From positions 186,001 through 250,000 of the forward strand of contig NZ_PYVZ01000002.1 of assembly GCF_003056405.1 (NCBI RefSeq): a stretch of 64,000 nt of DNA. The letters run 5' to 3'. Positions 8,723-40,817 of this stretch are shown one piece after another. The stretch is from Devosia indica. Its GTDB lineage: Bacteria; Pseudomonadota; Alphaproteobacteria; Rhizobiales; Devosiaceae. Below the pieces are notes generated by a model. The model was not told where the DNA came from. It was given only the letters and a program-made list of their open reading frames with translations, and did not search any database. The position numbers and the translations under genes are program-made. The first letter of the stretch is position 1. Each line of letters opens with the position of its first letter.

Positions 8723-9247
8723 ATGCGCGTGAGCCTCGCACTCGTTCTGGCACTGGGCCTGGCAGCTCAGCCGGCTCTGGCCCAGAAGACCAAGTCGTCC
8801 CCGGCTGCAGAAGCCGTGGCGGCGCTGGAGATGTGCGAGGCCTTCGCCAGGGGTGACGTGCTTGCCCTCGAGACGGCCAAGGGTGCCGGCTGGGACGCCT
8901 ATGAGGATGAAGCGGAAAGCCCCTTCATCCGCTCCTATTCGGCCGGGCGCGAGGTTCCGGGCATCGGCTGGGGCGACATGTTCGCGCTGGTCGAGAGCTA
9001 TCCGAACCGCACGCTGGGCTATTGCCGCATCGATATTGCCGAGCCCCGGGGGCAGGGCGAAGGCGCCATCGAGGCGCTGGCCGCGCTGGATGGCTACGAG
9101 GGTGAGGTGACCAGCGAAAATGGCGGCACCTATGCAAGCCTGATTGGCACTGGCGCCCTCGACAGCCTGCTCATCACCCATTGGGACGCTGTGGGCTTTG
9201 TTATCCAGCTCACGATCCTCACGCCGAACACCGCCACGAGCGAATAG
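8723..9247 (+). CDS. Secreted hypothetical protein between sucC and sucD
   Basis: A 174-residue protein with a signal peptide (MRVSLALVLALGLAAQPALA, then QKTKSS). The mature part has two cysteines (EMCEAF and GYCRID) and patterns such as LETAKGAGWDAYEDE and PFIRSY. The ATG is four bases after the sucC stop and the gene sits in the same orientation, so it is probably co-transcribed with sucC and sucD. I do not recognise a named family. Similar small periplasmic proteins with a 'CE-F..GD..ALE.A...GW' pattern may exist in relatives. It is unlikely to act on succinyl-CoA, because it is exported. Confidence 0.8.
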   Translation: MRVSLALVLALGLAAQPALAQKTKSSPAAEAVAALEMCEAFARGDVLALETAKGAGWDAYEDEAESPFIRSYSAGREVPGIGWGDMFALVESYPNRTLGYCRIDIAEPRGQGEGAIEALAALDGYEGEVTSENGGTYASLIGTGALDSLLITHWDAVGFVIQLTILTPNTATSE

Positions 9248-26123: not shown

Positions 26124-26912
26124 ATGTTCTTTGTTGTCTCGAAGCTGTTCTGGCTGGTGGCGCAGCCCATCAGCATCGTGCTTTTGCTGATGCTGATGGC
26201 CGGTGTTCTGATTGCATTCGGACGCCGCTGGTTTGCCCTGACCGCCTTGTCCCTGGCCGTGTTGCTGCTTGGCCTTACCAGCCTGACCAATATCGGCGGG
26301 ATCATGATCCGACCGCTGGAAGACCGGTTTGCGGTGCCGGCAATGCCTGAGCGCGTCGATGCCATCGTGATGCTCGGTGGTGCGACCGTCTCCAGCGTCA
26401 GCGGGGTCCGGCAGACCGTGGCGATGAATGATGCCGGGGAGCGGTTGTCCACCACGCTATGGCTGGCGCAGCGCTTTCCGCAAGCGCGCATCGTCCTGTC
26501 CGGTGGCGGCGGTGTGCTGGGCGGGCTGGGTGAGAGCGAGGCGGAAACGGCGCGCCGCTTCTTTGTGGCGCTGGGGATCGAGAGCGATCGTCTGGTGCTA
26601 GAGCCGGAGTCCCGCAACACGGCCGAGAATGCGCGGTTCACCCGGGAGTTGCTCGCCGAAGGCGGCAATACTGTCGCGCTGGTCACATCGGCCTTTCACA
26701 TGCCGCGATCGGTCGGCCTGTTTCGCGCCCAGGGAGTGCGGGTGCTGCCTTGGCCCACGGATTACCGCAGCACCGGCACAGAGCAGTTCGGTCTTGATCT
26801 GGCCGATCTGGGCGGCAATCTCACCATTGCATCGACTGCCATGCGCGAGTGGATCGGGCTGACCGTCTATTGGGCGACGGGCCAGATCGAGAGCTGGTTT
26901 CCAGAACCCTGA
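26124..26912 (+). CDS. YdcF/ElyC family membrane protein
   Basis: A 262-residue protein with two N-terminal membrane segments (about residues 5-30 and 37-57) and a DUF218 domain. The nucleotide-like motif is [17 protein letters not shown], with [17 protein letters not shown] and [21 protein letters not shown] further on. Relatives include ElyC/YcbC, which influences use of the lipid carrier in cell-envelope synthesis. I used the ATG after GGTAGGGTGGGC; a GTG 18 bases earlier is less likely. A terminator follows directly. Confidence 0.87.
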
Positions 26913-26917
26913 AACAG

Positions 26918-26946
26918 AAGCGGCGCCCCAAGGGACGCCGCTTTTT
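26918..26946 (+). terminator. Terminator after the YdcF gene
   Basis: AAGCGGCG and CGCCGCTT form an 8-bp stem followed by TTTCT. The inner CCC and GGG can extend it. Confidence 0.85.
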
Positions 26947-26968
26947 CTGTCAATATCGCCTGAAAGTC

Positions 26969-27136
26969 CTATGTGCCCCTGCGGAACAGCCCGACCACGA
27001 GAGAAATCACGAGGAAGGCGAGGAACAGGAAGAACAGGATCTGCGCGATACCAGCCGAGGCGCCGGCAATGCCACCAAAGCCCAGCACGCCGGCGATCAG
27101 CGCGATTACCAGAAAAACCAGTGCATAATACAGCAT
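26969..27136 (-). CDS. DUF1328 (YtjA-type) small membrane protein
   Basis: A 55-residue protein with two membrane segments, [20 protein letters not shown] and a second one after [11 protein letters not shown]. It ends RRGT. This is the DUF1328 pattern. GGAG lies six bases before the ATG, which excludes the longer upstream extension. The gene is preceded by a perfect EcfG-type promoter, so it is very probably part of the general stress regulon; the molecular role is unknown. Confidence 0.9.
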
Positions 27137-27168
27137 GGGAAACTCCATGTTTTGATACTTGCACAAAC

Positions 27169-27193
27169 AACGCCGCCGCTCACCGCAAGTTCC
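27169..27193 (-). promoter_or_regulatory. EcfG-type stress promoter of the DUF1328 gene
   Basis: Read on the minus strand: GGAAC, 16 bases, CGTT. This is an exact match to the known EcfG consensus. The -10 element lies 33 bases before the ATG. Confidence 0.85.
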
Positions 27194-27200
27194 GCACGCA

Positions 27201-27230
27201 AAGAAAAAGGCCGGGACGAGCCGGCCTTTT
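27201..27230 (-). terminator. phyR terminator
   Basis: AAAAGGCCGG and CCGGCCTTTT pair perfectly over 10 bp, about 21 bases after the phyR stop. On the minus strand it is followed by a T-rich stretch. It separates phyR from the DUF1328 promoter. Confidence 0.88.
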
Positions 27231-27251
27231 CCGCAATCGTATGTAGCTGGA

Positions 27252-28046
27252 TCAGGCCGCGGCGCGCGAGCCTTCATCGAAGAACAGCGCCTGGCTGATC
27301 AGGGCTTTCACCATGTCGGGATTGAACGGCTTGGTGACCAGGAATGTCGGTTCGGGCCGCTCCCCGGTCAGCAGCCGCTCGGGGAAAGCAGTGATGAAGA
27401 TCACCGGCACCGAGTGATTGTTGAGAATGTCGTTGACCGCATCGATGCCCGAGCTGCCGTCGGCAAGCTGGATGTCGGCCAGGATCATGCGGGGCTGGGT
27501 CTGCGCAAACAGGCTCAGGGCTTCCTTGTGGGTGCGGGCAATGCTGACCACCTTGTGGCCGAGGCTCTGAACCATCTGCTCGATATCCATGGCGATCAGC
27601 GGTTCATCTTCGATGATCATGATCTCGGTGGCCACCTGGCGGGAAATGTCGGTGGACGCCTGGTCGAGCAGGTCGGCGAATTCATCCTCGCTGGTCGAGA
27701 GGATCTCGGCGGCCTGGGCATGGTTGAAGCCTTCAACCGCAACCAGCAGGAATGCCTGGCGGGGCAGGGGCGCCAGATTGGCCAAATTGGCGGCGGCGCG
27801 CTGTTCCCAGGCAAAATTCGAAGCCGGCTCCGGCACTTTCACCGCAGAGGATGAAAACAGTGCCGAGAACAGCTTGTAGAGCGCAATGCGGTCATTGCTG
27901 GCTTCGGGAAACAGGGAGATATCGGCGATCAGCGCTTCGAGCGTGGCGGCGACATAGGCGTCGCCTGAGGTCTGCGAACCGGTGACGGCGCGAGAAAAAC
28001 GCCGCAGGTAGGGCAGATGCGGTGCGATCCGCGTGGACAAGGACAT
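27252..28046 (-). CDS. phyR: General stress response regulator PhyR
   Basis: A 264-residue response regulator. The N-terminal half (about residues 10-135) is the sigma-like domain, with region 2-like and region 4-like helices ([28 protein letters not shown]). The C-terminal half is a receiver with acidic pair Glu146/Asp147, phosphoacceptor Asp191 ([12 protein letters not shown]), Thr219 and Lys239 (VTKPF). When phosphorylated, PhyR captures the anti-sigma factor NepR and so frees EcfG. The start [17 protein letters not shown] follows GGGAG. It is divergent from nepR-ecfG and has its own exact EcfG promoter, giving positive feedback. Confidence 0.97.
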
Positions 28047-28098
28047 AGACGAAAACTCCCGGGTGACGCTTGTTGTACTGTACCTCACGATGGCCCAA

Positions 28099-28123
28099 AA
28101 CGTGTGTTGCCGAGAAAAGTTCC
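28099..28123 (-). promoter_or_regulatory. EcfG-type promoter of phyR
   Basis: On the minus strand GGAAC, 16 bases, CGTT: an exact match. The -10 element is 53 bases before the phyR start. Confidence 0.85.
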
Positions 28124-28131
28124 GGCAGTTT

Positions 28132-28157
28132 GGAACTTTTGCACCTCTCCGGGCATT
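28132..28157 (+). promoter_or_regulatory. Imperfect EcfG-type promoter toward nepR-ecfG
   Basis: GGAAC, 17 bases, CATT; one mismatch from CGTT in the -10 element. It faces the nepR-ecfG operon, and its -35 element is eight bases from that of the divergent phyR promoter. It suggests weaker autoregulation of the sigma factor. Confidence 0.5.
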
Positions 28158-28224
28158 TGGGCCACGGTACAGCGCGATAAATCAAGACTGAACGGTCAAA
28201 TTCGGAATGAAGAAGGATAATCTG

Positions 28225-28428
28225 GTGACGCAGCAACGTGTGCGCATGCAGGCGGAGCGGGCGGACGATGGGCTCGGTCCGACCTCGGATATCGGGTCGC
28301 GTCTGCGCGCCCTTTATGGAGCGGTTCAGGACGAAGGCGTCCCCGACCAGCTTCTCGACCTGCTCGAAAAGCTCGACAGCGCCGAACAGGCACAGAGCGA
28401 CAAGTCGTCCAATCGCGGTGGGGAGTAA
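28225..28428 (+). CDS. nepR: Anti-sigma factor NepR
   Basis: A 67-residue anti-sigma factor. The conserved core, IGSRLRALYGAVQDEGVPDQLLDLLEKLD, forms the two helices that bind either EcfG or the sigma-like domain of PhyR. I chose the GTG start because AAGGA lies seven bases upstream; an ATG 18 bases earlier in the same frame has no such site. It is four bases upstream of ecfG and translationally linked to it. Confidence 0.93.
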   Translation: MTQQRVRMQAERADDGLGPTSDIGSRLRALYGAVQDEGVPDQLLDLLEKLDSAEQAQSDKSSNRGGE

Positions 28429-28432
28429 CGGC

Positions 28433-28987
28433 ATGAATGCCGAGGGAACTTCCTTCAAGCGCGAGATGCTTGCGACCCTGCCCAGTCTGCGCGCCTTTGC
28501 GGTGTCGCTGACCGGCAAGCATGACAAGGCCGATGACCTGGTGCAGGACACCGTGATGAAGGCCTGGGCCAAGCAGTCCAGCTTCGAGATGGGCACCAAT
28601 ATCAAGGCCTGGCTATTCACGATCCTGCGCAACGAGTTCTACAGCCAGATGCGCAAGCGCGGGCGCGAGGTGCAGGACACCGACGGCGCCTTTACCGAGC
28701 GTCTTTCCGTGCATCCTTCGCAATATGGCTCAATGGATCTCGAAGACTTCAAGGCAGCGCTTTCCGAGCTGCCGGATGACCAGCGTGAAGCCATCATCCT
28801 GATCGGCGCTTCGGGCTTTTCCTATGAAGAGGCGGCCTCGATCTGCGAATGCGCCGTTGGCACCATGAAAAGCCGGGTCAGCCGTGCCCGTACGCGTCTG
28901 ACCGAGCTGCTCAAGGTGAGTGGCGAGTCCGATTATGGTCCCGATGCCGTCTCTGCGCAGGTGACGTCAGGCAATCACGGCTTCTGA
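28433..28987 (+). CDS. ecfG: ECF sigma factor EcfG (general stress response)
   Basis: A 184-residue ECF sigma factor of the EcfG group. Region 2 includes LPSLRAFAVSLTGKHDKADDLVQDTVMKAW and the -10 recognition helix stretch NIKAWLFTILRNEFYSQMRKR. Region 4 includes LSELPDDQREAIILIGASGFSYEEAASICECAVGTMKSRVSRAR. GGGGAG precedes the ATG. It directs transcription from GGAAC-N16/17-CGTT promoters, six of which lie nearby. Its 3' end overlaps the convergent receiver gene by 13 bases. Confidence 0.96.
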   Translation: MNAEGTSFKREMLATLPSLRAFAVSLTGKHDKADDLVQDTVMKAWAKQSSFEMGTNIKAWLFTILRNEFYSQMRKRGREVQDTDGAFTERLSVHPSQYGSMDLEDFKAALSELPDDQREAIILIGASGFSYEEAASICECAVGTMKSRVSRARTRLTELLKVSGESDYGPDAVSAQVTSGNHGF

Positions 28988-29343
28988 GCGAGGCGGACCT
29001 TTATGGCTTCGGCCAGGTCCGCATCGGGCAATGGCTTGAGCAAGATAGGGGTGTCGGGCAGGCCCGGCACACCCTGTGCGCGCAGGTCATCGGCGCTGAT
29101 GCCGATAACGGCCACTCCGCTGTGCGCCAATTGTTGGGCAAACGCGATCAGTTCGGGCTTGTCGGTTTCGATCTCGACAATGGCGAGCGCTGCGGATGTC
29201 CAGTCAGGCATGTGCCGGTTGGCTTCGTCAGGGCTGCGCGCCAGAACGACATGAGAGGCCCCCATGGCCTGCAGGGCGCTTTGTATTCCCAATGCGATGA
29301 TGAATTCGGTCTCGAGGACGAGAACCGTTCGGCCGTTCAGCAT
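28975..29343 (-). CDS. Degenerate receiver-domain protein
   Basis: A 122-residue single-domain receiver-like protein. The fold pattern is intact: TVLVLETEF, ALAIVEIETDKPELIAFAQQLA, VAVIGISADD, ILLKPLPDADL. The acidic pair is reduced to Glu-Thr-Glu (11-13) and the phosphoacceptor Asp is replaced by Glu57; Lys103 is kept. Glu at this place can mimic the phosphorylated state, so it may work constitutively or respond to something else. The start at MLNGRTVLVL leaves out an upstream in-frame extension that lacks a ribosome site. It lies convergent to ecfG. Confidence 0.72.
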   Translation of the reverse strand: MLNGRTVLVLETEFIIALGIQSALQAMGASHVVLARSPDEANRHMPDWTSAALAIVEIETDKPELIAFAQQLAHSGVAVIGISADDLRAQGVPGLPDTPILLKPLPDADLAEAIKVRLAQKP

Positions 29344-29423
29344 GGGTGTGCTTTCTGTTGGTGTGTGCCCCCGGCCTCTGATCGGCTCATCTGGCGCCCC
29401 TGTCATTTAACTATGACATGTCG

Positions 29424-29449
29424 GGAACGCTCCTTGCCGACATAGCGTT
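29424..29449 (+). promoter_or_regulatory. EcfG-type promoter of the Crp/Fnr gene
   Basis: GGAAC, 17 bases, CGTT: an exact match. The -10 element ends 35 bases before the TTG start at 29485. Confidence 0.82.
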
Positions 29450-29484
29450 TGATATCTCGACTTCCAAAAGCGTCAGGAAATCAA

Positions 29485-30243
29485 TTGAGTTTGGTCCTTC
29501 CATCTTCCGGGCGACGCGTGTCCTGCGAGCAATGCCCGTTGCGCACGCTGCCAACGTTTCGCGAGTTTTCGGCCGGTGAGCTGAAATTCGTTTCCAGTTT
29601 CAAAACCGGCGAAATGACCGCCGAATCCGGAGCCGTCTTCCTGACCGAGGGTGCACATAGCGCGCAATTATTTACCGTGCTGTCGGGCTGGGCGTTCCGC
29701 TTCAAGATGCTCGATGACGGGCGGCGGCAGATCCTGAACTATGTGCTGCCCGGCGATCTGGTCGGCTTGCAGGGCTCGGTGATCGGGGAAATGGAACATT
29801 CGGTCGAAGCGCTTTCGCCCCTGGTGCTGTGCGTGTTTCAGCGGGATCGGCTCGATGAGTTGTTTGCCAACCACCCTGGCCTTGCCTTTGACGTCACCTG
29901 GCTGGCAGCACGCGAGGAGCGGATGCTGGACGATCATCTGCTCAGCCTGGGGCGGCGCACGGCGCTCGAGCGGGCGGCCTATCTCCTGGCGTTCCTGCAT
30001 GAACGGGCCAAAGCGGTTGGCCTGGGCAAGGGGCAGGGACCGCTTTCGATCCCGCTGACCCAGCAGCATGTTGCCGACACGCTGGGCCTGTCCATCGTTC
30101 ACACCAACAAGACATTGCGCAAGCTGACGAACAAGGGTCTGATCCGCTGGCTGGGGCGGAGTTGCGAGGTACTCGATGCGGCCGAGCTGGCGCGCCTGGC
30201 CGGGTGGGAAGGTCTGGGTGAACCGGTCCGTCCCCTGATTTAG
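29485..30243 (+). CDS. Crp/Fnr family transcriptional regulator
   Basis: A 252-residue regulator with an N-terminal Cys pair (CEQCPLR, residues 14 and 17), a cyclic-nucleotide-type beta barrel (ELKFVSSF to LCVFQRDRL) and a C-terminal winged helix (LTQQHVADTLGLSIVHTNKTLRKLTNKGLIRW). Two Cys are too few for a standard FNR iron-sulfur cluster at this end. The start is the TTG at 29485, with AGGAA upstream; the longer reading would begin inside the EcfG promoter. It probably carries the stress signal to a second tier of genes. Confidence 0.88.
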   Translation: MSLVLPSSGRRVSCEQCPLRTLPTFREFSAGELKFVSSFKTGEMTAESGAVFLTEGAHSAQLFTVLSGWAFRFKMLDDGRRQILNYVLPGDLVGLQGSVIGEMEHSVEALSPLVLCVFQRDRLDELFANHPGLAFDVTWLAAREERMLDDHLLSLGRRTALERAAYLLAFLHERAKAVGLGKGQGPLSIPLTQQHVADTLGLSIVHTNKTLRKLTNKGLIRWLGRSCEVLDAAELARLAGWEGLGEPVRPLI

Positions 30244-30320
30244 CCATGTCGGCCTCATTGCTGCCATCGCTGGAAAGCATTGCTCGGGCACAGCGGCCGC
30301 ACCCGGCGCAGGAGCAGGAG

Positions 30321-31799
30321 ATGAGCGTCTTGGTTGACGGGCTCAAAAGTGTCGAGGGACCGCATCTTGTCCGGCGGGGTACGCGACGCCTGGCGGTGTG
30401 GGTTTCGCTCGGCCTGGTGTGCCTGGCCGCGGTAGCGGCGCTGATGCTGATGCAGGGCATCGACCGGCAGCTCAATGACATCAACAAGACCCATGCGGTG
30501 CGCAATGCCGCGCGCGAGCTGACCCATGCACTGAGCCAGGCCGAGGCCAGCCAGCGCGGTTTTTTGCTGACGGCCGACCCGCAGTTTCTCCAGCCCTATC
30601 GAGAAGCGGTCTCAAGCCTGGATCGTCGCGTCGCGGCCCTGATGGAAATGACGACGGATGATCGTGGACAAAGCGACCGCGTGGCCAGCATCACCGGCGA
30701 CATTTCAAGCAAGATGGCGGAAATGAACCGCACGGTGGAGCTGGTTTCGACGCGGCGCAGTGAAGAGGCCCAGACCCTGACAGAGACCGGCATGGGCGCG
30801 CGGCTGATGGCCGAGGTCAGCGCGACGTTGGAAGAGTTCATCGCCGAGGAAGATGCCAAGCTGGCTGATCGCAACCAGCAGATCGATCAGACCCGCACGG
30901 GCCTGGTCGCGGCGTTGATTGCCGCGCTCGCTGCGGCGGCGATCCTGGCCTATGCCCTGTTGATGCGCACGCAGAAGCAGGTCAGCGCATTGGCCCAGCG
31001 CCATCGCGGGCTGTTGAGCCAGAACGAAGCCTTGGAAGAAGAAGTGGCCGAGCGCACGCGGGATATCGAGGAGGCGCGCGCTCATGCCGAGCGCGAACGC
31101 CAGCGGGTGGAAGCCCTGTTGCAGGACACCAATCATCGCATCGGCAATTCGCTGGCCACGGTCTCTTCGCTTCTGGCCTTGCAGGTCATGCGCACCCAGT
31201 CGGACGATGTTCGCGCGGCGCTCGAAGCGGCGCGGCTGCGCGTCCATGCGGTGGCCTCGGCCCATCGTCGCCTGCGCCTGGGGGATGACCTTGAAACCGC
31301 CAGCGCTGACGAATTCCTCGCCGCGGTTCTCGAGGACCTTGCCGAAACCCAGACCGATGGCGGCCGCATCGCGGTGTGTGGCGACCTGTCGCCCATTGAA
31401 GTGAGTGCGCGCGATGCCACGACACTCGGCATCCTGGTCGGTGAGCTGGTGACCAATGCGCTCAAATATGCCTTTCCGGACGCGCGCAGTGGCACCATAA
31501 CTGTCACCTTGGCGCGCGATGAAGAAGATGTGCCGATGCTTCGTGTCAAGGATGACGGTGTGGGCATGCCGGAGGGTGACGATGCAACCGAATCAGGGCT
31601 GGGCTCGGTGATCGTCAAGCAGCTCTCGGGGCAGTTCGGCGGTGAGCCGCACTACGCGCCGGTGGAAGGTGGCGGACTCGAAGTGACAATCAGGCTTCCC
31701 GAACTGGGCCGCGCCAGGACGACAAAAAGGATGACGCTCTTTGAAAATCCGGGCCATTTTGAACAAGGACGGCGGGACCCTGCGCACCCTGGATCTTGA
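30321..31799 (+). CDS. CHASE3 sensor histidine kinase, HWE/HisKA_2 type (PhyK-like)
   Basis: About 492 residues. The membrane segment at residues 20-45 is followed by a CHASE3 periplasmic sensor (RELTHALSQAEASQRGFLLTADP) and a second segment (GLVAALIAALAAAAILAYALL). A coiled coil follows, then a kinase core with the phosphorylated His272 in DTNHRIGNSLATVSSLLALQ. ATPase motifs are ELVTNALKYAFPD and VKDDGVGMPEG. Kinases of this class phosphorylate PhyR, and this gene lies close to phyR. The start at 30321 has AGGAGCAGGAG before it; an ATG at 30246 without such a site is the alternative. The end overlaps the next gene by 59 bases. Confidence 0.88.
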   Translation: MSVLVDGLKSVEGPHLVRRGTRRLAVWVSLGLVCLAAVAALMLMQGIDRQLNDINKTHAVRNAARELTHALSQAEASQRGFLLTADPQFLQPYREAVSSLDRRVAALMEMTTDDRGQSDRVASITGDISSKMAEMNRTVELVSTRRSEEAQTLTETGMGARLMAEVSATLEEFIAEEDAKLADRNQQIDQTRTGLVAALIAALAAAAILAYALLMRTQKQVSALAQRHRGLLSQNEALEEEVAERTRDIEEARAHAERERQRVEALLQDTNHRIGNSLATVSSLLALQVMRTQSDDVRAALEAARLRVHAVASAHRRLRLGDDLETASADEFLAAVLEDLAETQTDGGRIAVCGDLSPIEVSARDATTLGILVGELVTNALKYAFPDARSGTITVTLARDEEDVPMLRVKDDGVGMPEGDDATESGLGSVIVKQLSGQFGGEPHYAPVEGGGLEVTIRLPELGRARTTKRMTLFENPGHFEQGRRDPAHPGS

Positions 31800-32661
31800 C
31801 GAACTCTGCGCTATGGCGACGGATCTGTTCGCGCGCGAGGGACATGAACTCGACTGCACGATCGTGGCGGGCAAGGATGTCGAAAAGGCCCTCAAGGCCG
31901 CTGCCAATGACCCGTCCGTCGAGGCGGTGATAGCCGGTGGCGGTGATGGCACGATTTCGGCGGCGGCGGGCATTGCCTTCAAGAGCAACAAGCCTCTTGG
32001 CGTGTTGCCGGCCGGCACGATGAACCTGTTTGCGCGCGCCTTGGGCATGCCCCTGGAGCTGGATCGTGCCTTGACTGCCATTGCGCGCGGGCAAGTCGAC
32101 CGGATCGACATCGCCACGGCCAATGGCCGGCCTTTTGTACATCAGTTCGGGGTGGGCATTCATGCGCGCCTGGTGCGCATCCGCAATGGCATGGTCTATC
32201 GCAGCCGTGTCGGCAAGATGCTGGCCAGCCTGCGCGCCATTCTGGCGGCAGCGGTCAACCCGCCGCGCTTTGAGGTCGAGTTGCATACAGAGAAGGGCGA
32301 CAGGACCGTGACCGCGACGGGCGTGGCGATCTCCAACAATCCGCTTGACGACAGTCCCGTGCCGGTGGCCACAACGCTCAACTCAGGGCGGCTCGGGGTC
32401 TATGTGGCACGCAGTGTTTCCACCCGGGAATTGCTCAACCTGGCGCTCGATGTGATGAGCGGACGCTGGCGCGCCAATCCAGCCGTCAGCGAAACCGAAG
32501 TGCGCGATCTGATCCTGCGATTTCCCAAGCGCAAGCGGGGCACCCATGCCGTGGTCGACGGGGAACTGATCGATCTGGAAAATGCCGTGGATCTACAATT
32601 GCATCCACTGGCCCTGCCGGTGATCCGGCCGCCCGCAGACATGCGCACCAATGGCCGCTGA
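31741..32661 (+). CDS. Diacylglycerol/sphingosine kinase-family protein
   Basis: A 306-residue lipid kinase-like protein. The catalytic domain begins KIRAILNKDGGTLR and contains the nucleotide-binding AVIAGGGDGTISAAAGIAF and LGVLPAGTMNLFARALGMP motifs of the DAGK catalytic family. The C-terminal beta domain includes ATGVAISNNP and HAVVDGELIDL. The start is a TTG with AAAAGGA eight bases upstream, inside the 3' end of the kinase gene. Such proteins phosphorylate lipids such as diacylglycerol; the substrate here is unknown. The overlap with the sensor kinase gene suggests coupled expression. Confidence 0.85.
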   Translation: MKIRAILNKDGGTLRTLDLDELCAMATDLFAREGHELDCTIVAGKDVEKALKAAANDPSVEAVIAGGGDGTISAAAGIAFKSNKPLGVLPAGTMNLFARALGMPLELDRALTAIARGQVDRIDIATANGRPFVHQFGVGIHARLVRIRNGMVYRSRVGKMLASLRAILAAAVNPPRFEVELHTEKGDRTVTATGVAISNNPLDDSPVPVATTLNSGRLGVYVARSVSTRELLNLALDVMSGRWRANPAVSETEVRDLILRFPKRKRGTHAVVDGELIDLENAVDLQLHPLALPVIRPPADMRTNGR

Positions 32662-32671
32662 CACTCGCGCG

Positions 32672-33109
32672 TCAGGCCTCGCCCCCGTCATCGTTGTCAC
32701 GCAACAGGGCAATGGCGGCTATGGCTGCGGCAGGCAGCCCGAGGCGCAACAGCATGGGTGATTTGGTCAGCAGTGGCAGGGCGGTGAGCGCGGCGGTGGT
32801 GAGGAACGTACTGGTTTCCTTGGCCCTGCGGCGTTCCGCCAGTTCCCGCTGCCGGTGGCTGCGGCCGATCAGCGAGCCCAGATAAACTGCAAGAGCAAGA
32901 ACCAGAAACGTTCCTGCCAGAATGAGGGCGGCGATGATCGGCCCGACAATGTCGGCCAGTGCCATAAAGCCGGCCGCGATCAGGAAGCCGACGGCAATGG
33001 TGCAGAACAGCGCAATCAGCCCCCAGACCAGGGCGGCGGCCTTGGCCTTGGATGCAAGGCCTTCAACCTCCAGCCCCAGCAGGGAAGCGAGCGGCGAAAT
33101 CAGACCCAT
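32672..33109 (-). CDS. Holin-superfamily III (YqjE-like) membrane protein
   Basis: A 145-residue protein. Two adjacent membrane segments (about residues 25-50, ALVWGLIALFCTIAVGFLIAAGF, and 53-80) are followed by a basic helix (RSHRQRELAERRRAKET). The C-terminal stretch, with LPAAAIAAIALL, is hydrophobic and ends in an acidic tail. This resembles the phage-holin-III/YqjE type of protein, which is not a real phage holin. It is two bases from the DUF883 gene and shares its EcfG promoter, like the yqjD-yqjE pairing in enterobacteria. Confidence 0.75.
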   Translation of the reverse strand: MGLISPLASLLGLEVEGLASKAKAAALVWGLIALFCTIAVGFLIAAGFMALADIVGPIIAALILAGTFLVLALAVYLGSLIGRSHRQRELAERRRAKETSTFLTTAALTALPLLTKSPMLLRLGLPAAAIAAIALLRDNDDGGEA

Positions 33110-33111
33110 AA

Positions 33112-33480
33112 TTAGTGCCGGGTGAGCAGGGCGAAGACGAAGCCGATCCCGGCTGCCGCGGCTACGGCCGTCAATGGCTTTTCGCGGATGGTATCCTTGA
33201 GCTGCTTTTCGGCCTGGGTCACCTGGTCCTGTGCGTCGTCCAGCAAGTGCTGGCCGCGGGCCTGCAACTGCTTGACCTCATTGGTCGCCACTGCGCGCGC
33301 CTCCCCGACCTTCTCGCCGGAGAGCTTTCCCAGCGTGTCGGAAATCGCCCTGATGTCGGCCTGAAGCTGGGCGACCTGCGCCTCCAGTTCCTGCTCGCGG
33401 GTCTCGGTCTTGGCCTTGGCGGCAGCACCACCATTGCCGGCCTTGCGGCGGGAAGGGGCCATATCGGAAGTCGTAGCCAT
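33112..33480 (-). CDS. DUF883 (YqjD/ElaB-like) membrane protein
   Basis: A 122-residue protein: a basic, disordered N terminus, a long amphipathic coiled coil (about residues 28-95, rich in Glu, Gln, Ala), and a C-terminal membrane anchor (PLTAVAAAAGIGFVFALLTRH) preceded by REK. This is the YqjD/ElaB pattern; in E. coli these are inner-membrane proteins that bind ribosomes in stationary phase. AAGGAG precedes the ATG. A perfect EcfG promoter starts its transcript. Confidence 0.87.
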   Translation of the reverse strand: MATTSDMAPSRRKAGNGGAAAKAKTETREQELEAQVAQLQADIRAISDTLGKLSGEKVGEARAVATNEVKQLQARGQHLLDDAQDQVTQAEKQLKDTIREKPLTAVAAAAGIGFVFALLTRH

Positions 33481-33508
33481 TGGACGCTCCTTGTTGTGTT
33501 GTCGGAAC

Positions 33509-33533
33509 AACGCCAGGGACCGGCAGGAGTTCC
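33509..33533 (-). promoter_or_regulatory. EcfG-type promoter of the DUF883-holin operon
   Basis: On the minus strand GGAAC, 16 bases, CGTT: an exact match. The -10 element is 29 bases before the start codon, leaving a leader just long enough for the AAGGAG site. Confidence 0.87.
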
Positions 33534-33546
33534 GCGCGGATTGGGT

Positions 33547-33585
33547 GAAAAAAGAAGTCCCGACAAGCCCTTGGCCTGTCGGGAC
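33547..33585 (-). terminator. Terminator after the DUF3309 gene
   Basis: GTCCCGACA and TGTCGGGAC pair over 9 bp. On the minus strand the hairpin is followed by a T-rich run (TTCTTTTTT). It ends the transcript of the DUF3309 gene. Confidence 0.85.
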
Positions 33586-33690
33586 AAAAGGTGCGGATCA
33601 AAAGGGGGGCGACCATCGATCCGCAAGGGCACAATCCATTTTCAAGGAAACCAGAGGGACCTGGCGTGCCCGTTTGGGTTTATGCGGGGG

Positions 33691-33843
33691 CTAGATGCGA
33701 CCCATCAGAACCAGGATCAGCACCACGACCAGAACGACGCCGAGAATACCCGAGGGAAAGTAGCCGAAGCCACGTGAATATCCCCAGGTCGGCAGCGCGC
33801 CGATCAGCAAGAGAATAAGAATGATCAGAAGTATCGTACCCAT
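33691..33843 (-). CDS. DUF3309 small hydrophobic protein
   Basis: A 50-residue protein: MGTILLIILILLLIGALPTW, then GYSRGFGYFPSG, a second hydrophobic segment and a final MGRI. This is the typical DUF3309 sequence of two membrane segments joined by a Tyr/Gly-rich loop. GGAGGG lies four bases before the ATG. It follows the 56-residue membrane-protein gene by 44 bases on the same strand, and no promoter is seen between, so it is probably transcribed from the EcfG promoter further up. Its function is unknown. Confidence 0.88.
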   Translation of the reverse strand: MGTILLIILILLLIGALPTWGYSRGFGYFPSGILGVVLVVVLILVLMGRI

Positions 33844-33887
33844 TGAACCCTCCGGGATCTGTTGTTGGCTGGTGCGCCGTTTCGACC

Positions 33888-34058
33888 CTAGAGAAGGGCG
33901 ACCAGCAGGGCGGTGGCGGTCGCCAGGATGAGGGAGGCGGGAAGAAGAGCTAGAGCCACTTCGGCGAAGCGCGACTGGTGGTCGTAGAGATCGTCGCTCC
34001 AGGTGGCTGCGGTGACCCGGCTGTTGCCATCATGGGTTCTGAACTGGGACTGGTTCAT
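33888..34058 (-). CDS. Unlisted 56-residue single-span membrane protein
   Basis: A small gene of 56 codons plus stop. The N-terminal half is polar (MNQSQFRTHDGNSRVTAATW, then SDDLYDHQSRF); the C-terminal half is one membrane segment (VALALLPASLILATATALLV) ending in Leu-Leu. I chose the second of two in-frame ATGs because AGGAG lies nine bases before it but abuts the first. An exact EcfG promoter lies 71 bases upstream. I do not recognise the family. It is probably a stress-induced membrane peptide. Confidence 0.72.
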   Translation of the reverse strand: MNQSQFRTHDGNSRVTAATWSDDLYDHQSRFAEVALALLPASLILATATALLVALL

Positions 34059-34128
34059 CGTCGTCATCTCCTGCGATCCGGTTTGCCGGACCTTTCCTGG
34101 CGGGGCCGCTCGGCCCGCGTGCCAAAAG

Positions 34129-34154
34129 AACGAGGTGATGACGATTTTGGTTCC
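34129..34154 (-). promoter_or_regulatory. EcfG-type promoter of the small-protein/DUF3309 unit
   Basis: On the minus strand GGAAC, 17 bases, CGTT: an exact match, 10 bases beyond the stop of the transglutaminase-like gene. It can start a separate stress transcript. Confidence 0.8.
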
Positions 34155-34163
34155 GTTGCCGGG

Positions 34164-35042
34164 TTACTCGACGCGCAGCACGTCCACCGATTGCTTGGTC
34201 TCATGCGAGCCATGGGTGCGCAGAACGCCAACAATGGGCGAGATGTCGGAATAGTCGCGCCCATGGCCGATCGAGATATGGTCGGGTCCGGCAATCATGG
34301 CATTGGTGGGATCGAACTCGACCCAGCCCAGATGCTGGCCGCACCAGGCCCGCACCCAGGCATGCATGGCGTCGGCCCCTTCAAGGCGCGCCTGCCCTTC
34401 CGGCGGATTGGTGCGCAGGAAGCCCGAAACATAGCCGGCTGGAATGCCAAGGCCGCGCAGGCCCGCAATCATCACATGGGCGAAATCCTGGCAGACGCCC
34501 TTGCGCAGCTCGAAGGCCTCGGCCGGGCGGGTTTCGACATCGGTCGCCTTGGGGTCATATTTGAAGTCCCTGTGGATCGCCATGCACAGTGCGGTGGCAA
34601 CGCCCAGCGTTGTGGGCGCGTCCGCCGCCACGGCGCGCGCATAGTCGGTGATCGCCGGAACCATCTGGACACGGGACGAGGCGGCCAGGAAGTGCTGCGG
34701 GCTGGTGGACGCCACCGACCAATATTGCCCGATCTCGCGGCAGAGTTGCGCCAGTGGCGGAGACAGGTCTGCGGGCGGCGAGAATTCCTCGATCTGTACA
34801 CGTGCGGTTAGGCGGATGGTCAGCTTGTCATGCGGTTCGGTCATCGTGATGGCGGTCACCGAATTGCCGAAAAAGTCGAGAAAGCCGCTCTGTCGCGCCG
34901 GCGCCGGTTCAATGGCCAGCGAGGACGCAATCACACGCTGCAGGCCCGGCACATTGGCCGGCGCCACGCGAATGTGGTGGCGGCCGCCATGCACGGGGGC
35001 GTCATAGTCGTATTCGAGAGCCAGGCGGATATCGTAGAGCAT
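34164..35042 (-). CDS. Transglutaminase-like cysteine protease
   Basis: A 292-residue protein. The N-terminal beta domain (about residues 1-90, LALEYDYDAPVHGGRHHIRV) is the bacterial transglutaminase-like N-terminal domain. The core has the triad Cys184 (GVCQDFAHVM), His227 (DAMHAWVRAW) and Asp244 (WVEFDPTN). No signal peptide, so it acts in the cytoplasm. It is the third gene of an operon with an ATP-grasp/alpha-E fusion and a larger transglutaminase/DUF2126 protein. In such operons these proteases are thought to process or cross-link peptides made by the ATP-grasp enzyme. Confidence 0.9.
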   Translation of the reverse strand: MLYDIRLALEYDYDAPVHGGRHHIRVAPANVPGLQRVIASSLAIEPAPARQSGFLDFFGNSVTAITMTEPHDKLTIRLTARVQIEEFSPPADLSPPLAQLCREIGQYWSVASTSPQHFLAASSRVQMVPAITDYARAVAADAPTTLGVATALCMAIHRDFKYDPKATDVETRPAEAFELRKGVCQDFAHVMIAGLRGLGIPAGYVSGFLRTNPPEGQARLEGADAMHAWVRAWCGQHLGWVEFDPTNAMIAGPDHISIGHGRDYSDISPIVGVLRTHGSHETKQSVDVLRVE

Positions 35043-35053
35043 CTGTCCCGCCC

Positions 35054-37465
35054 TCAGGTGAAATAAGCCGCGGCGATCAGGCTGGATAGCATGCCCACAT
35101 CGTCCGCCAGCCGGTCGAGCCGCACCGGTGTCATGTCGCTGGCTTCGGCGATGACCAGATCGGTGTGGATCTCCAGCGCCAGCTTGGCGGCAGGGGATAG
35201 TTGTTCATCGTCAATGCCGCCGGGCAGGGCTTCGATCTGGTCGCGCAATTCGGCGAGCTGGAACAGAACCGAGCGCGGATTGAGGGGATCGAGCACCAGC
35301 AGGTCGACAGCGCTCAGCGCTCCGGCCGTGACTGAATAGCGGCGCCGATGCGACATTACGCTGTCGCCGATTTCGAGCAGCATTTCGACCGAACCGTCCG
35401 GGGCGTCGGGGGCCGATAGCCAGGCTGTGACGCGCGCCATCTGGATAGCCCGTTCCAGCCGCCGCCCCAGTTCAAGAAAGCGCCAACCGGCAAAGCGATA
35501 CATGTTCTCGTGCACCAGGCCCGAGAAGCCGGCCAGCTTGCGCAGCAGTACCGTCATGGCGCGGGTGGCGTCATCGCCCGTGTCGATGCGCGCGGCAAAG
35601 CGCTGGGCGGTCTTTTGCAGGTCGGTCAGGGCCAGCCAGCCATCAGGCGAGAAGCGGTCGCGGATCTGTCCGGCGCTGTGCACCGCGCTGTCGATGGAGG
35701 CCAGCAGTCCCTGCGGCATGGCCTCGGCGGCATCGACATCGAGCGTTTCGAGCAGCGCTGCGCAATGGGTCAGGATTGGCAGGTCCGGCTTGGAGAGTTC
35801 CGCCAACCGGGCATTATAGGCGCGCAGAATGCGCACGCTCGCTTCGCAGCGTTCCGCATAGCGGCCCAGCCAGATCAGGTTGTCGGCCGCGCGGCTGGGC
35901 AAATTGCCGGGGGCGTTGCGCACCAGCTTTTCGCCCTCGCGCGGCAGCAGAGAGACTTGCTCGACCGGCTTGCTCGACAGCACCCAGACGTCGGCCGCCT
36001 GGCCGCCGCGTTGCATGGCCAGGGCCGTCGTATCGGTGGTGGAACCGACACGGGCAAAGCCGCCGGGCATGATGGTCCAGCCTTCCTCGGTGCGGGCGGC
36101 ATAGACGCGCAGGGTAATGGGCCGCGGCTCGAGCTTGCCATCGACATAGACCGGCGCCGTGGAGAGACGCACCGGCTCCTGCCCGACATAGGCGCCGCCA
36201 TCATTGGCGATGCGGGATTTGAGCTCAGCCTTTTGCTCGGCGGTCATGCTGGCGCCAAGGGCGGTGCCGCGCAGATCGTCGAACGGCAATTGCGTGGAGA
36301 AGGCGGGTCCGATCATGAGTTGATCGAAATTATCGAGCACGAATTCGCGCTCGGCGCCCTGGCCGCACCACCAGGTGGCAATTTCGGGCAGTTCGAGCCC
36401 CGTGCCCAGCAAATGCTTGCACAGGCGCGGCATGAAGGCGGCCAATGCCCGCGTTTCCATGATGCCGGTGCCCAGCGCATTGATCATCGAGATCGAGCCG
36501 GCGCGCAGTGCCTCGACCATGCCGGGGGTGCCGATATGGCTGTCATAGCGCAGTTCGAGCGGATCAGCGAAGCTGGCGTCGAGCCGCCGCCAGAGCACGC
36601 TGACCGGCTTGAGGCCGGCCACAGTCCGCACCATGACCTTCCCGTCCTCGACCACCAGATCCTCGCCCTCAAGCAGCATCAGCCCCAGATAGCGGGCGAT
36701 ATAGGCATGTTCGAAATAGGTTTCGTTGAGCTGGCCGGGGGTGAGAATGCCGACGCGCCCGCCATCGCGCTGGGCCTGGTTGAACAGCGCATCGCGGAAG
36801 CCGCGGAAAAAGCCGGCCAGCCGGTTGATATTGAGCGAGGCGTAGATTTCGGACAGGGCGCGGGTGGTGGCCACGCGGTTTTCCAGGGCAAAGCCGGCAC
36901 CCGATGGTGCTTGGGTCCGATCGCCCAGCACCCACCAGGACCCGTCCGGCCCACGCCCCAGTTCGAAAGCGCAGAAATGCAGATAGTGCCCGCTGACCGG
37001 CCGTATGCCGACCAGGGGGCGCAGGAATTCGCTGTTCTGGGCGATCAGCTCGGGCGGCAGCAGGCCTTCCTGCACCAGAGTGTTGTTGCCATAGATATCG
37101 GCGACAATGGCTTCGAGCAGTTCGGCGCGCTGGGTCAGCCCGCTCGAAATCTGTACCCAGTCGGCTTCGTCGATCAGCAGCGGGATATGGGCCAGGGGCC
37201 AGGCGCGCTCCTTGCCCTCGGCCCCGTCATATTTGCGGTAGAACACCCCGGCATCGCGCAGATACTGGTCGGCGCGCTCGACCCGGGCGGCCAGTTCGGA
37301 CGGCCCCAGCGCATCGAAGGCCGCCATGAGTTTATCCCAGCCGGGCCGTATGGCGCCGGACGGGTCGATCATCTCGTCCGGCACGCCGGGCAGCAGGCGG
37401 TAATCAGCAATGATGCTGGGGCCGGCCGGGGGCTTGCCGCGGGTCTGCTGATTCCGCGAACTCAT
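35054..37465 (-). CDS. Circularly permuted ATP-grasp / alpha-E fusion protein
   Basis: An 803-residue fusion. About the first 480 residues are the circularly permuted ATP-grasp type 2 domain, with GVFYRKYDGAEGKERAWPLAHIPLLI, RPVSGHYLHFCAFELGRGPDGSWWVLGDRTQAPSG, GVRVGILTPG-like GRVGILTPGQ, and MINALGTGIMETRALAAFMP. The last 300 are an alpha-E domain (DUF403), starting SRAADNLIWLGRYAERCEASVRILRAYNARL, all alpha-helical. The two are usually separate neighbouring genes. ATP-grasp enzymes of this type are predicted to form amide bonds. It begins four bases after the transglutaminase/DUF2126 gene and lies 11 bases before the small transglutaminase gene. Confidence 0.9.
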   Translation of the reverse strand: MSSRNQQTRGKPPAGPSIIADYRLLPGVPDEMIDPSGAIRPGWDKLMAAFDALGPSELAARVERADQYLRDAGVFYRKYDGAEGKERAWPLAHIPLLIDEADWVQISSGLTQRAELLEAIVADIYGNNTLVQEGLLPPELIAQNSEFLRPLVGIRPVSGHYLHFCAFELGRGPDGSWWVLGDRTQAPSGAGFALENRVATTRALSEIYASLNINRLAGFFRGFRDALFNQAQRDGGRVGILTPGQLNETYFEHAYIARYLGLMLLEGEDLVVEDGKVMVRTVAGLKPVSVLWRRLDASFADPLELRYDSHIGTPGMVEALRAGSISMINALGTGIMETRALAAFMPRLCKHLLGTGLELPEIATWWCGQGAEREFVLDNFDQLMIGPAFSTQLPFDDLRGTALGASMTAEQKAELKSRIANDGGAYVGQEPVRLSTAPVYVDGKLEPRPITLRVYAARTEEGWTIMPGGFARVGSTTDTTALAMQRGGQAADVWVLSSKPVEQVSLLPREGEKLVRNAPGNLPSRAADNLIWLGRYAERCEASVRILRAYNARLAELSKPDLPILTHCAALLETLDVDAAEAMPQGLLASIDSAVHSAGQIRDRFSPDGWLALTDLQKTAQRFAARIDTGDDATRAMTVLLRKLAGFSGLVHENMYRFAGWRFLELGRRLERAIQMARVTAWLSAPDAPDGSVEMLLEIGDSVMSHRRRYSVTAGALSAVDLLVLDPLNPRSVLFQLAELRDQIEALPGGIDDEQLSPAAKLALEIHTDLVIAEASDMTPVRLDRLADDVGMLSSLIAAAYFT

Positions 37466-37469
37466 GGCA

Positions 37470-40400
37470 TTACGTGAACCGCGCCGGCCGCCTGAGGTCA
37501 AGCGTCAGCGGAAACTCATCCGCAGGCTTTTCGGGGGTGAGGCGATATCCACCCGGGGTGTGGTTATGCGGCACGAAGCGTGCCAGCCGCCGGGCCTCGG
37601 CTTCATTGCCGTTGACCGGGAAGGTTTCGTAGTTGCGTCCGCCCGGATGGGCGACGTGGTAGGTGCAGCCGCCGATCGGCCGTCCGGTCCAGTTGTCATA
37701 GATGTCAAACACCAGCGGCGCGTGCACCGGTATGGCCGGATGCATGCCCGAAGCCGGCTGCCAGGCCTTGAAGCGCACCCCCGTTACGGCTCCGCCAGCA
37801 GCGCCTGCCGGTTGCAGTGGCATTGGACGCTGGTTGCAGGTCACCGTGTAGCGGCCCGGATTGTCGCATTCGAGACGCACCTGCAGCCGCTCCAGTGATG
37901 AATCGACAAAGCGCACCGTACCGCCGATCGCGCCCTGTTCTCCCATCACATGCCAGGGCTCCAGCGCCTGGCGCAGTTCGAGCCTGACCCCATCCACCTC
38001 TACCTCGCCGCAGAAGGGGAAGCGGAACTCGAGCTGGGCGGCGAACCATTCGGGCTCGAAGCCAAAGCCATGCTGGCGCAAATCCTCGAGCACGCCGAGG
38101 AAATCCTGCCAGACAAAACTTCCAAGCATGAAGCGGTCGTGCAGGCTGGTACCCCAGCGTGTGAAGTCACCCGAAAGCGGCTTATCCCAATAGCGGGCAA
38201 TCAGGGCCCGGATCAGCAATTGCTGGGCGAGCGACATGCGCGCATTGGGTGGCATTTCGAAGCCGCGAAACTCCACCAGTCCCAGCCGCCCGGTCGGGCC
38301 ATCGGGAGAATAGAGCTTGTCGATGCAGATCTCGGCCCGGTGCGTATTGCCGGTAACATCGACCAGCAGATTGCGGAACAGGCGGTCGGTCAGCCAGGGC
38401 AGGGGCGGGGTGCCTTCGCCCGGCGCCGGCACCTGGGCCATGGCGATTTCGAGCTCGTACAGGCTGTCGTGCCGTGCCTCATCCAGGCGGGGTGCCTGGC
38501 TGGTCGGGCCGATGAACATGCCCGAGAATAGATAGCTCATCGAGGGGTGGCGCTGCCAATGCAGCACCAGCGATTTCAGGAGGTCCGGCCGGCGCAGGAA
38601 CGGGCTGTCATGCGGCGTGGCTCCGCCGACCACGACATGATTGCCCCCGCCGGTGCCGACATGCTTGCCATCGATCATGAACTTGTCGGCGCCCAGGCGG
38701 CACTGGCGCGCCTCCTCGTAGACGGCCTCCGTGGTGGCCACGCAATCATCCCAGCTGGAGGCGGGGTGGATATTGACCTCGATGACGCCTGGATCAGGCG
38801 CCACGCGAATGACGTTGAGTCGCGGGTCCTGCGGCGGGGCATAGCCTTCAACATGGATCGGCTGGCCGATCTGCTTGGCTGCGGCTTCAGCGGCAGCGAT
38901 CAGTTCGAGAAAGTCCTCCAGTGCCTCCACCGGGGGCAGGAAGACGCAGAGGCGGTGCTCGCGCACTTCGGCGGTGACGGCGGTGCGCACCTCGCCCTCG
39001 ATCTCGCTGATGACCTGTTCGGTGATGTCCTGCTGCTCGGTCGCGGCGGTGAAGCCGGCGGCGGCCTGGGCGCGCGGATCGGTTTCAAGCCCGGTCTTCT
39101 TGCGCGCCAGGATTTCTTCGGGATCGGGCAACGGCCCGCGCGGCGCGCCAGGATCCATGGGTACCACATGCGGAAAGTCCGTGGCCTTCAAATGCTTGAG
39201 CGAACTCAAGGGCAGGCGATAGCCGGCCGGGCTGTCGCCGGGCGCCAGGAACAGCTTGCCGCGCCGCGTCTTCCATTTTTCGGTCAGCCAGGGGCTTGAG
39301 GCCCTGGCGTTCCAGCGCTGCACGGGCAGCACATAGCCGGTGGGGTTGGTCAGTCCGCGCTCGAATACCTTGGCAATACGCGAGCGCGCCTCAGGATCGG
39401 CCAGTTCGGAATTAGCGGGGTCGACATTGGCCGGCAGATTGGCTTCCTTGAGCAGCCATTCGCCGGGGTCTTCATAGGCTTCGTCGATGGTCTCGCCGGT
39501 CAGTCCGAGATTGCGCGCAAAAGCATCGAGGAATTTCCGCGCATCCTCGTGCGTGGCGCTGGTCCTGATGCCTTCCTGGGCAATCAGCTTGTCGTCCTGC
39601 CAGACCGGCTTGCCGTCGACGCGCCAATAGAGCGAGAAGGTCCAGCGCGGCAGGGTTTCGCCGGGATACCACTTGCCCTGGCCATGGTGCAGCATGCCAT
39701 TGGGGGCAAAGCGCTGGCGCAGGCGGCGGATCAGCGCATCGGCCAGGCGCCGCTTGGTGGGACCGACTGCGCCGGCATTCCACTCATCGGCTTCGAAATC
39801 ATCGATGGACACAAAGGTCGGCTCGCCCCCCATGGTGAGGCGCACATCCTGCTCGATGAGTTTTTCGTCGACCTTTTTGCCCAGGGCATTGAGCCGCTCC
39901 CAGCTCTCGTCGGAGAACGGCTTGGTGATGCGCGGATGTTCGGCAATCCGGGTCACCCGCATGTCGAAGGCGAAGTCGACTTCGGCAAAAGAGGCAAAGC
40001 CGGAAATCGGCGCGGCATTGCGATAATGCGGGGTTGCCGCCAGTGGCACATGGCTTTCGCCGGTCAGCAGGCCAGAGGTGGGATCAAGGCCAATCCAGCC
40101 CGCGCCGGGCAGATAGACTTCCGCCCAGGCATGCAGATCGGTGAAATCGTGGTCGGTGCCCGCCGGGCCATCGAGCGAGACGATATCGGGCTTGAGCTGG
40201 ATCAGATAGCCCGAGACAAAGCGCGCAGCGAGGCCGAGATGGCGCAGGATGTTGACCAGCAGCCAGCTCGAATCCCGGCACGACCCCTTGCCATTGCCAA
40301 GCGTCTCCTCGGGCGTCCATACGCCGGGCTCGAGGCGGACGATATAGTTCACCACGCTTTGCAGATGGGCGTTGAGCTCGGTGACGAAAGTGACGGTGTT

Positions 40401-40817
40401 TTTCGGGCTCTTGTCGAGCCCATCGAGGAATTTCTGCAGCAGCGGCCCGGCCGGCTCGGGCTTCATGTAGATCGTCAGGTCGTCGCGCAAATCCTCGGGA
40501 TATTGGAACGGCCAGGTCTCGCCGCTCTCTTCGACGAAAAAGTCGAACGGATTATAGACCGTCATGTCGGCCACCAGGTCGACCTCGATCTTGAGCTCGG
40601 TCACCGGCTCGGGAAACACGAAGCGCGTCAGGAAGTTGCCATAGGGATCCTGCTGCACATTGACGAAGTGCAGGCTGGGGCTGACCCGAAGCGAATGGCT
40701 GAGCACCTTGGTCTTGGAATGCGGCGCCGGCTGCAGGCGAATGACCTGCGGCTGCAGGGTGACCGGACGGTCATATTTGTAGTGGGTCAGATGGTAGATG
40801 GCGGCTTTGATCGACAT
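37470..40817 (-). CDS. Transglutaminase-like / DUF2126 protein
   Basis: An 1115-residue protein, first gene of the operon. Residues 1-100 form the transglutaminase-like N-terminal beta domain ([21 protein letters not shown]). The protease core has Cys180 ([12 protein letters not shown]), His229 ([10 protein letters not shown]) and Asp245 (WIGLDPTSG). From about residue 310 on, the DUF2126 region carries Glu-rich sites including [14 protein letters not shown], and [37 protein letters not shown] and [12 protein letters not shown]. These patterns recall glutamine-synthetase-like amidoligases, but that is my inference. It is cytoplasmic, with no signal peptide. Confidence 0.9.

Follow-up and report, generated by a model that had tools for sequence, protein, structure and literature searches.

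Which genes does the general stress sigma factor EcfG serve in Devosia, and is its own locus among them? A literature search for EcfG together with Devosia found no paper. The question is raised by a 64,000-nucleotide stretch of DNA from the soil bacterium Devosia indica (assembly GCF_003056405.1, contig NZ_PYVZ01000002.1, positions 186,001 to 250,000; hereafter the window), in which the genes for PhyR, NepR and EcfG lie amid copies of the EcfG-type promoter motif GGAAC-N16/17-CGTT. We consider it very probable that this is a Devosia general stress response locus with a PhyR-NepR-EcfG partner switch, EcfG transcribing its own locus from six promoters and further units elsewhere in the genome. 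Gene content and the six sites, which are conserved and clustered, make this reading of the sequence well supported; the partner switch, the dependence on EcfG and the operon extents are assigned by analogy with known relatives, and from the sites we infer transcription. A testable stress regulon is thereby proposed for Devosia.

In the scheme that we propose, stress would activate the HRXXN-type histidine kinase, leading to phosphorylation of PhyR; phosphorylated PhyR would capture NepR and thereby free EcfG. RNA polymerase carrying EcfG would then act on six promoters in the island, serving phyR, nepR-ecfG, the genes for a Crp/Fnr regulator, the kinase and a lipid kinase, the DUF1328 gene, the DUF883 and holin-like genes, and the genes for a 59-amino acid (59-aa) protein and DUF3309, as well as on further units elsewhere in the genome. 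This succession of kinase, PhyR phosphorylation, NepR capture and EcfG release has been described for the family, in which stress-sigma promoters on both core units bring about amplification (PMC8103513).

Exact promoter motifs and the genes they precede

A pattern scan of the window for the exact motif returned precisely the five sites listed in an earlier note on this DNA (Table 1), all of them correctly oriented and just upstream of a gene. The spacing of 30-75 bases given there was slightly off, as the −10 elements lie 28-61 bases from the start codons (DUF1328, 32; phyR, 52; Crp/Fnr, 35, with a TTG start assumed; DUF883, 28; 59-aa protein, 61). Over all 69 contigs of the genome (3.95 Mb) there are 50 exact sites, a density from which 0.09 sites would be expected per 7 kb, and when 50 sites were placed uniformly, five of them fell within 6,986 bp in none of 20,000 runs. 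Since the sites had been chosen for being clustered, this simulation supports the cluster and not each single site.

The picture of a compact stress island around phyR-nepR-ecfG, likewise drawn in the earlier note, agrees with the gene content, which includes PhyR, NepR, an extracytoplasmic function (ECF) sigma factor and an HRXXN-type kinase, and with a conserved placement of the motif (see below). PhyR carries sigma-like and receiver domains, and alignments to chains of known structure, PhyR-like ones in the case of PhyR, cover most of PhyR and of EcfG. The nepR gene lies directly 5' of ecfG, with 4 bases between them; its product scored 25.3 against the NCBIfam NepR model, below the cut-off of 100. 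Judged from its sequence, the protein encoded at 28433..28987 is for certain an ECF sigma factor. It also scored above the NF009199 cut-off, and the NF009169, NF009199 and 5uxx_A records are titled only 'RNA polymerase sigma factor'; from the locus context, we provisionally take it to be EcfG (ECF15). The genome encodes a second ECF sigma factor, 35% identical to the first, which does not reach the model cut-offs cleared by the window EcfG. Devosia subaequoris is the nearest named relative, with a PhyR 97% identical to that of the window.

Conservation of the motif in relatives and its occurrence across the genome

For comparison we fetched 80 loci, of which 33 were assigned by titles and identity to a Devosia group (Devosia and near relatives) and 47 came from other Hyphomicrobiales; loci with fewer than 150 bases upstream were dropped from the counts of motifs and of −10 spellings. 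The exact motif was found 5' of DUF1328 in 24/24 Devosia-group and 12/12 other loci, 5' of phyR in 29/33 and 45/47, 5' of DUF883 in 24/29 (one at −114) and 24/37, and 5' of the gene for the 59-aa protein in all nine orthologues found. Across orthologous genes it keeps a constant distance from the starts. In Devosia-group loci, no exact motif was found 5' of nepR (0/33), ecfG (0/33) or the genes for the kinase (0/28), the holin-like protein (0/29), DUF3309 (0/25) and DUF218 (0/18), nor 5' of the transglutaminase (0/26) and ATP-grasp (0/11) genes adjoining the island. In addition, a backwards control pattern stood upstream of none of the tested orthologous genes.

This conservation suggests that the stress sigma factor is strongly linked to DUF1328, DUF883 and the 59-aa protein, so that three poorly known small-protein families are tied to it by more than one sequence. 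The earlier note had tied several membrane proteins to the sigma factor; the tie is strong for these three, and DUF3309 and the holin-like protein have no site of their own. ElaB is RpoS-dependent in Gammaproteobacteria, and the likeness to the RpoS regulon there extends to target families only (DUF1328 and ElaB), the sigma factor being a different one. For Salmonella, DUF1328 (YtjA) is reported as one of the small proteins that sigma-S controls (PMC5437024).

Across the genome, 27 of the 50 exact sites lie 15-110 nucleotides 5' of coding-like open reading frames (ORFs) on the same strand, as against 416 of 9,000 random positions (4.6%) drawn from 30 loci of the same genome; to call coding-like ORFs, we used a codon score of our own, for which 11 genes of the window served as the training set. 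Under a looser 150-nucleotide rule, a same-strand ORF follows 29/50 sites, five in the window and 24 elsewhere, and a Pfam scan of 20 of these 24 genes matched 17 to a family. The families so preceded include an RpoH-like sigma factor, so labelled from its sigma-70 domains (L262, G000:C45, ORF 2006-2872; motif 133 nucleotides upstream), CsbD, DUF892, PRC-barrel, a second DUF1328 protein (L030, G000:C13; 36 nucleotides), a PAS-HWE kinase (L018, G000:C10; 56 nucleotides), a receiver protein, SspB and RsfS, and, less expectedly, CobU and a cation efflux protein. Taken together, the families would fit a stress regulon.

Table 1. Genes, EcfG-type promoters and a terminator-like hairpin of the island, in window coordinates.
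Feature	Position	Strand	Basis
DUF1328 small membrane protein, 55 aa	26969..27136	-	Pfam PF07043, 56.1 bits (cut-off 27)
Promoter GGAAC-N16-CGTT, 5' of DUF1328 gene	27169..27193	-	exact pattern match
phyR, anti-anti-sigma response regulator	27252..28046	-	PF22029, PF22233, PF00072; NCBIfam PhyR family NF006623, 390.9 bits (cut-off 240)
Promoter GGAAC-N16-CGTT, 5' of phyR	28099..28123	-	exact pattern match
Promoter GGAAC-N17-CATT, 5' of nepR-ecfG (sixth site)	28132..28157	+	variant −10
nepR, anti-sigma factor	28207..28428	+	PF18557, 54.2 bits (cut-off 25.7)
ecfG, ECF sigma factor	28433..28987	+	PF04542, PF08281; NF009169, 347 bits (cut-off 321); PDB 5uxx_A, 269.7 bits
Degenerate single-domain receiver	28975..29343	-	predicted structure, receiver folds in PDB
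Promoter GGAAC-N17-CGTT, 5' of Crp/Fnr gene	29424..29449	+	exact pattern match
Crp/Fnr-family regulator, start codon uncertain	29485..30243	+	PF00027, PF13545
CHASE3-HisKA_2 histidine kinase with HRIGN (HRXXN) motif	30246..31799	+	PF05227, PF07568; motif read in ORF
Diacylglycerol/lipid kinase, overlapping kinase gene	31741..32661	+	PF00781, 75 bits
Holin-like small membrane protein, directly 3' of DUF883	32672..33109	-	weak Phage_holin_3_6, 20.5 bits (below cut-off 28.4)
DUF883/ElaB-like protein	33112..33480	-	weak PF19029 and ElaB model, both below cut-off
Promoter GGAAC-N16-CGTT, 5' of DUF883 and holin-like gene	33509..33533	-	exact pattern match
Intrinsic-terminator-like hairpin between DUF3309 unit and DUF883 promoter	33557..33585	-	13-pair stem and T run
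DUF3309 small membrane protein, 50 aa, without own site	33691..33843	-	PF11752, 82 bits
59-aa protein, hydrophobic C-terminal segment, no family	33888..34067	-	orthologues in 9 loci; no match in Pfam or NCBIfam
Promoter GGAAC-N17-CGTT, 5' of 59-aa protein gene and DUF3309	34129..34154	-	exact pattern match

The hairpin at 33557..33585 has the longest stem of seven terminator-like sites in the scan, where 5.9 were expected. A scan of 26900-35100 for sigma-70 promoters gave a single weak match, at 34534 and within a gene, against 1.4 expected. Adjoining the island on the minus strand (34164-40817) is a run of genes of the transglutaminase-like and the circularly permuted ATP-grasp/Alpha-E type, together with another large ORF.

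A probable sixth promoter upstream of nepR-ecfG and alternative readings

The exact pattern skips a site 49 bases 5' of nepR, GGAAC-N17-CATT, whose −10 is one letter off CGTT and whose −35 stands back to back with that of phyR, 8 bases away. With the candidate most like CGTT preferred, the nepR −10 was CATT in 29, AATT in three and ATTT in one of the 33 Devosia-group loci, and in none was it CGTT; the 47 other loci gave CATT in 35, CGTT in seven, GATT in two, ATTT and CGTG in one each, and one lacked GGAAC. The phyR −10 reads CGTT in 74/80 loci. An exact CGTT motif occurs within 250 bases of nepR in 12 of the 47 other loci, in some of them far from the gene. Between the two −35 elements lie 7-10 bases in every one of the 33 Devosia-group loci, and 5-21 bases in 46/47 others. 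That CATT is universal at nepR had to be rejected: among 70 order-wide sites, taken from the 94 nepR matches listed for 150 genomes of the order by a picking rule that favours a back-to-back partner, CGTT was found in 41, CATT in 10, AATT in seven, another spelling in four and none in eight. CATT was seen in none of 29 class-wide loci (own locus left out), 16 of which had CGTT, and within the Devosiaceae CGTT stands at nepR in two genera besides Devosia. In the genome there are 49 GGAAC...CATT sites; six of the 30 examined lie upstream of genes, nepR included. Based on these comparisons, we suggest that nepR-ecfG has an overlooked EcfG-type promoter with an unusual, lineage-conserved −10 spelling. 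Scans for the exact consensus would thus overlook the most central target of the sigma factor, and the conserved CATT offers a direct way to test how strong the feedback of the switch is.

In the Devosia group, the letters following GGAAC differ between the two core promoters and the others. T is found in 93-100% of nepR promoters at four positions and in 44-75% of phyR promoters at six, whereas C, G or A prevail in the promoters of DUF1328, Crp/Fnr, DUF883 and the 59-aa gene; in loci outside Devosia, that of DUF883 is T-rich as well. Because GGAAC and the −10 letters served to select the sites for these letter counts, they are fully conserved by construction, and conservation is to be judged from the share of loci having the motif. 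It is possible, although we regard it as doubtful, that the phyR and nepR-ecfG promoters form a class apart from effector promoters (back to back at 7-10 bases, T-rich after the −35, and with the non-consensus CATT at nepR-ecfG in Devosia and many relatives), a pair that would compete for the freed sigma factor and so determine how much PhyR there is relative to NepR-EcfG.

Could the CATT site be something other than an EcfG promoter? The stretch GTTCC-N8-GGAAC might join the phyR −35 to the operator of another regulator, or sigma-70 might drive nepR-ecfG. Such a reading would accommodate the nepR −10 spellings other than CGTT in 73/80 loci, as well as the T-rich letters that extend the inverted-repeat arms on both sides and seldom follow GGAAC in the DUF1328, Crp/Fnr and 59-aa promoters. 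We nevertheless consider it unlikely, as GGAAC with NATT at 16/17 spacing precedes nepR in 32/33 Devosia-group loci, CGTT occupies the equivalent back-to-back position in several other families, and nothing resembling a sigma-70 site turned up before nepR-ecfG in the scan of 26900-35100. Moreover, a CATT promoter of Sphingopyxis is reported to be transcribed in vitro, strongly with EcfG2 (PMC7083833), and we do not claim that CATT marks a weaker promoter; in Sphingomonas melonis, some genes under EcfG control are listed with a putative EcfG motif that ends in CATT (PMC6599016). In Rhizobium etli, autoregulation of ecfG1 has been described, with the motif GGAAC-N16-CGTT (PMC3892343); the loci fetched from this genus mostly have CATT at nepR.

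Several observations weigh against transcription of the whole island, and of units elsewhere, by EcfG. By the 15-110 nucleotide rule, 23/50 genomic sites do not precede a coding-like ORF. The motif is not over-represented genome-wide, the backwards control being commoner (97 sites versus 50), so that it is not enriched as a string and its position relative to genes and the cluster are what count. Given the second ECF sigma factor, another sigma factor may serve single sites. Finally, the motif precedes the Crp/Fnr gene in only 10/24 Devosia-group orthologues, GGAAC is missing altogether from the 220 upstream bases of 11/24, and in D. subaequoris (L036, ~8760-9064) a deletion has removed most of the receiver and Crp/Fnr genes, whose remaining ends now adjoin, along with the intervening promoter. 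Perhaps, then, the true targets are limited to phyR, nepR-ecfG and the genes for small membrane proteins, and the Crp/Fnr site is incidental and lineage-specific. This is unlikely in our view: where present, the Crp/Fnr motif lies at −30 to −38 in all ten cases, and in another sub-group the lipid kinase gene bears the exact motif instead, 28-57 bases upstream (7/29 Devosia-group loci: L060, L061, L062, L063, L064, L065 and L068). Five of these seven have a Crp/Fnr orthologue without the motif, and in L064 and L065 no Crp/Fnr orthologue was found, a pattern that suggests relocation of the promoter and not loss of control. The Crp/Fnr part is, from these comparisons, the variable part of the island, and the promoter at 29424..29449, 5' of the Crp/Fnr gene, probably also serves the genes that follow, those for the kinase and the lipid kinase. 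That the five-site cluster reflects chance or composition is vanishingly improbable; at least five matches did arise in one of 100 window shuffles (mean 0.80), but conservation in orthologues, position relative to genes and the clustering simulation all contradict it.

Known systems and the degenerate receiver

With its familiar layout, the locus belongs to the already known alphaproteobacterial PhyR-NepR-EcfG system: phyR divergent from nepR-ecfG, an HRXXN kinase nearby and stress-sigma promoters before both units are shared with the locus described for the class (PMC8103513). The window differs from it in the Crp/Fnr gene and degenerate receiver between ecfG and the kinase, and in the CATT of nepR-ecfG. 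In Sinorhizobium meliloti, rpoH2, rsiA1 (nepR) and rsiB1 (phyR) are reported as RpoE2-dependent, with mapped starts (PMC3616915), and rpoH2 may be likened to the motif-bearing RpoH-like gene of the present genome; in contrast to the window, all four Ensifer/Sinorhizobium loci (L104, L106, L107, L113) and L111 have CGTT at N17 before nepR. For the EcfG promoters of Sphingopyxis granuli, a nearly fixed −35 GGAAC and a flexible −10 are described, with CATT among the most frequent alternatives, as here; its nepR2-ecfG1 promoter, however, has CGTT, and the CATT promoter tested was that of mltA2 (PMC7083833).

The receiver protein encoded at 28975-29343 gave no match to a receiver domain in Pfam, and its structure model (mean predicted local distance difference test score, pLDDT, 91.2) matched receiver folds in the PDB. 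It has Glu at the usual phosphoacceptor position, as do 19 of 23 aligned receivers (Asp in three, Asn in one), and Lys103 is invariant among them. The conserved phosphoacceptor Asp of phosphorylatable single-domain stress response regulators of the SdrG and MrrA type is thus not found in it. The protein may modulate the stress kinase without being phosphorylatable itself. Placement of its gene under EcfG was rejected, with no motif upstream in 23 loci. Lying between ecfG and the Crp/Fnr gene, the receiver gene is fast-evolving; its product is 30-57% identical to relatives in 22 loci whose PhyR is 83-94% identical.

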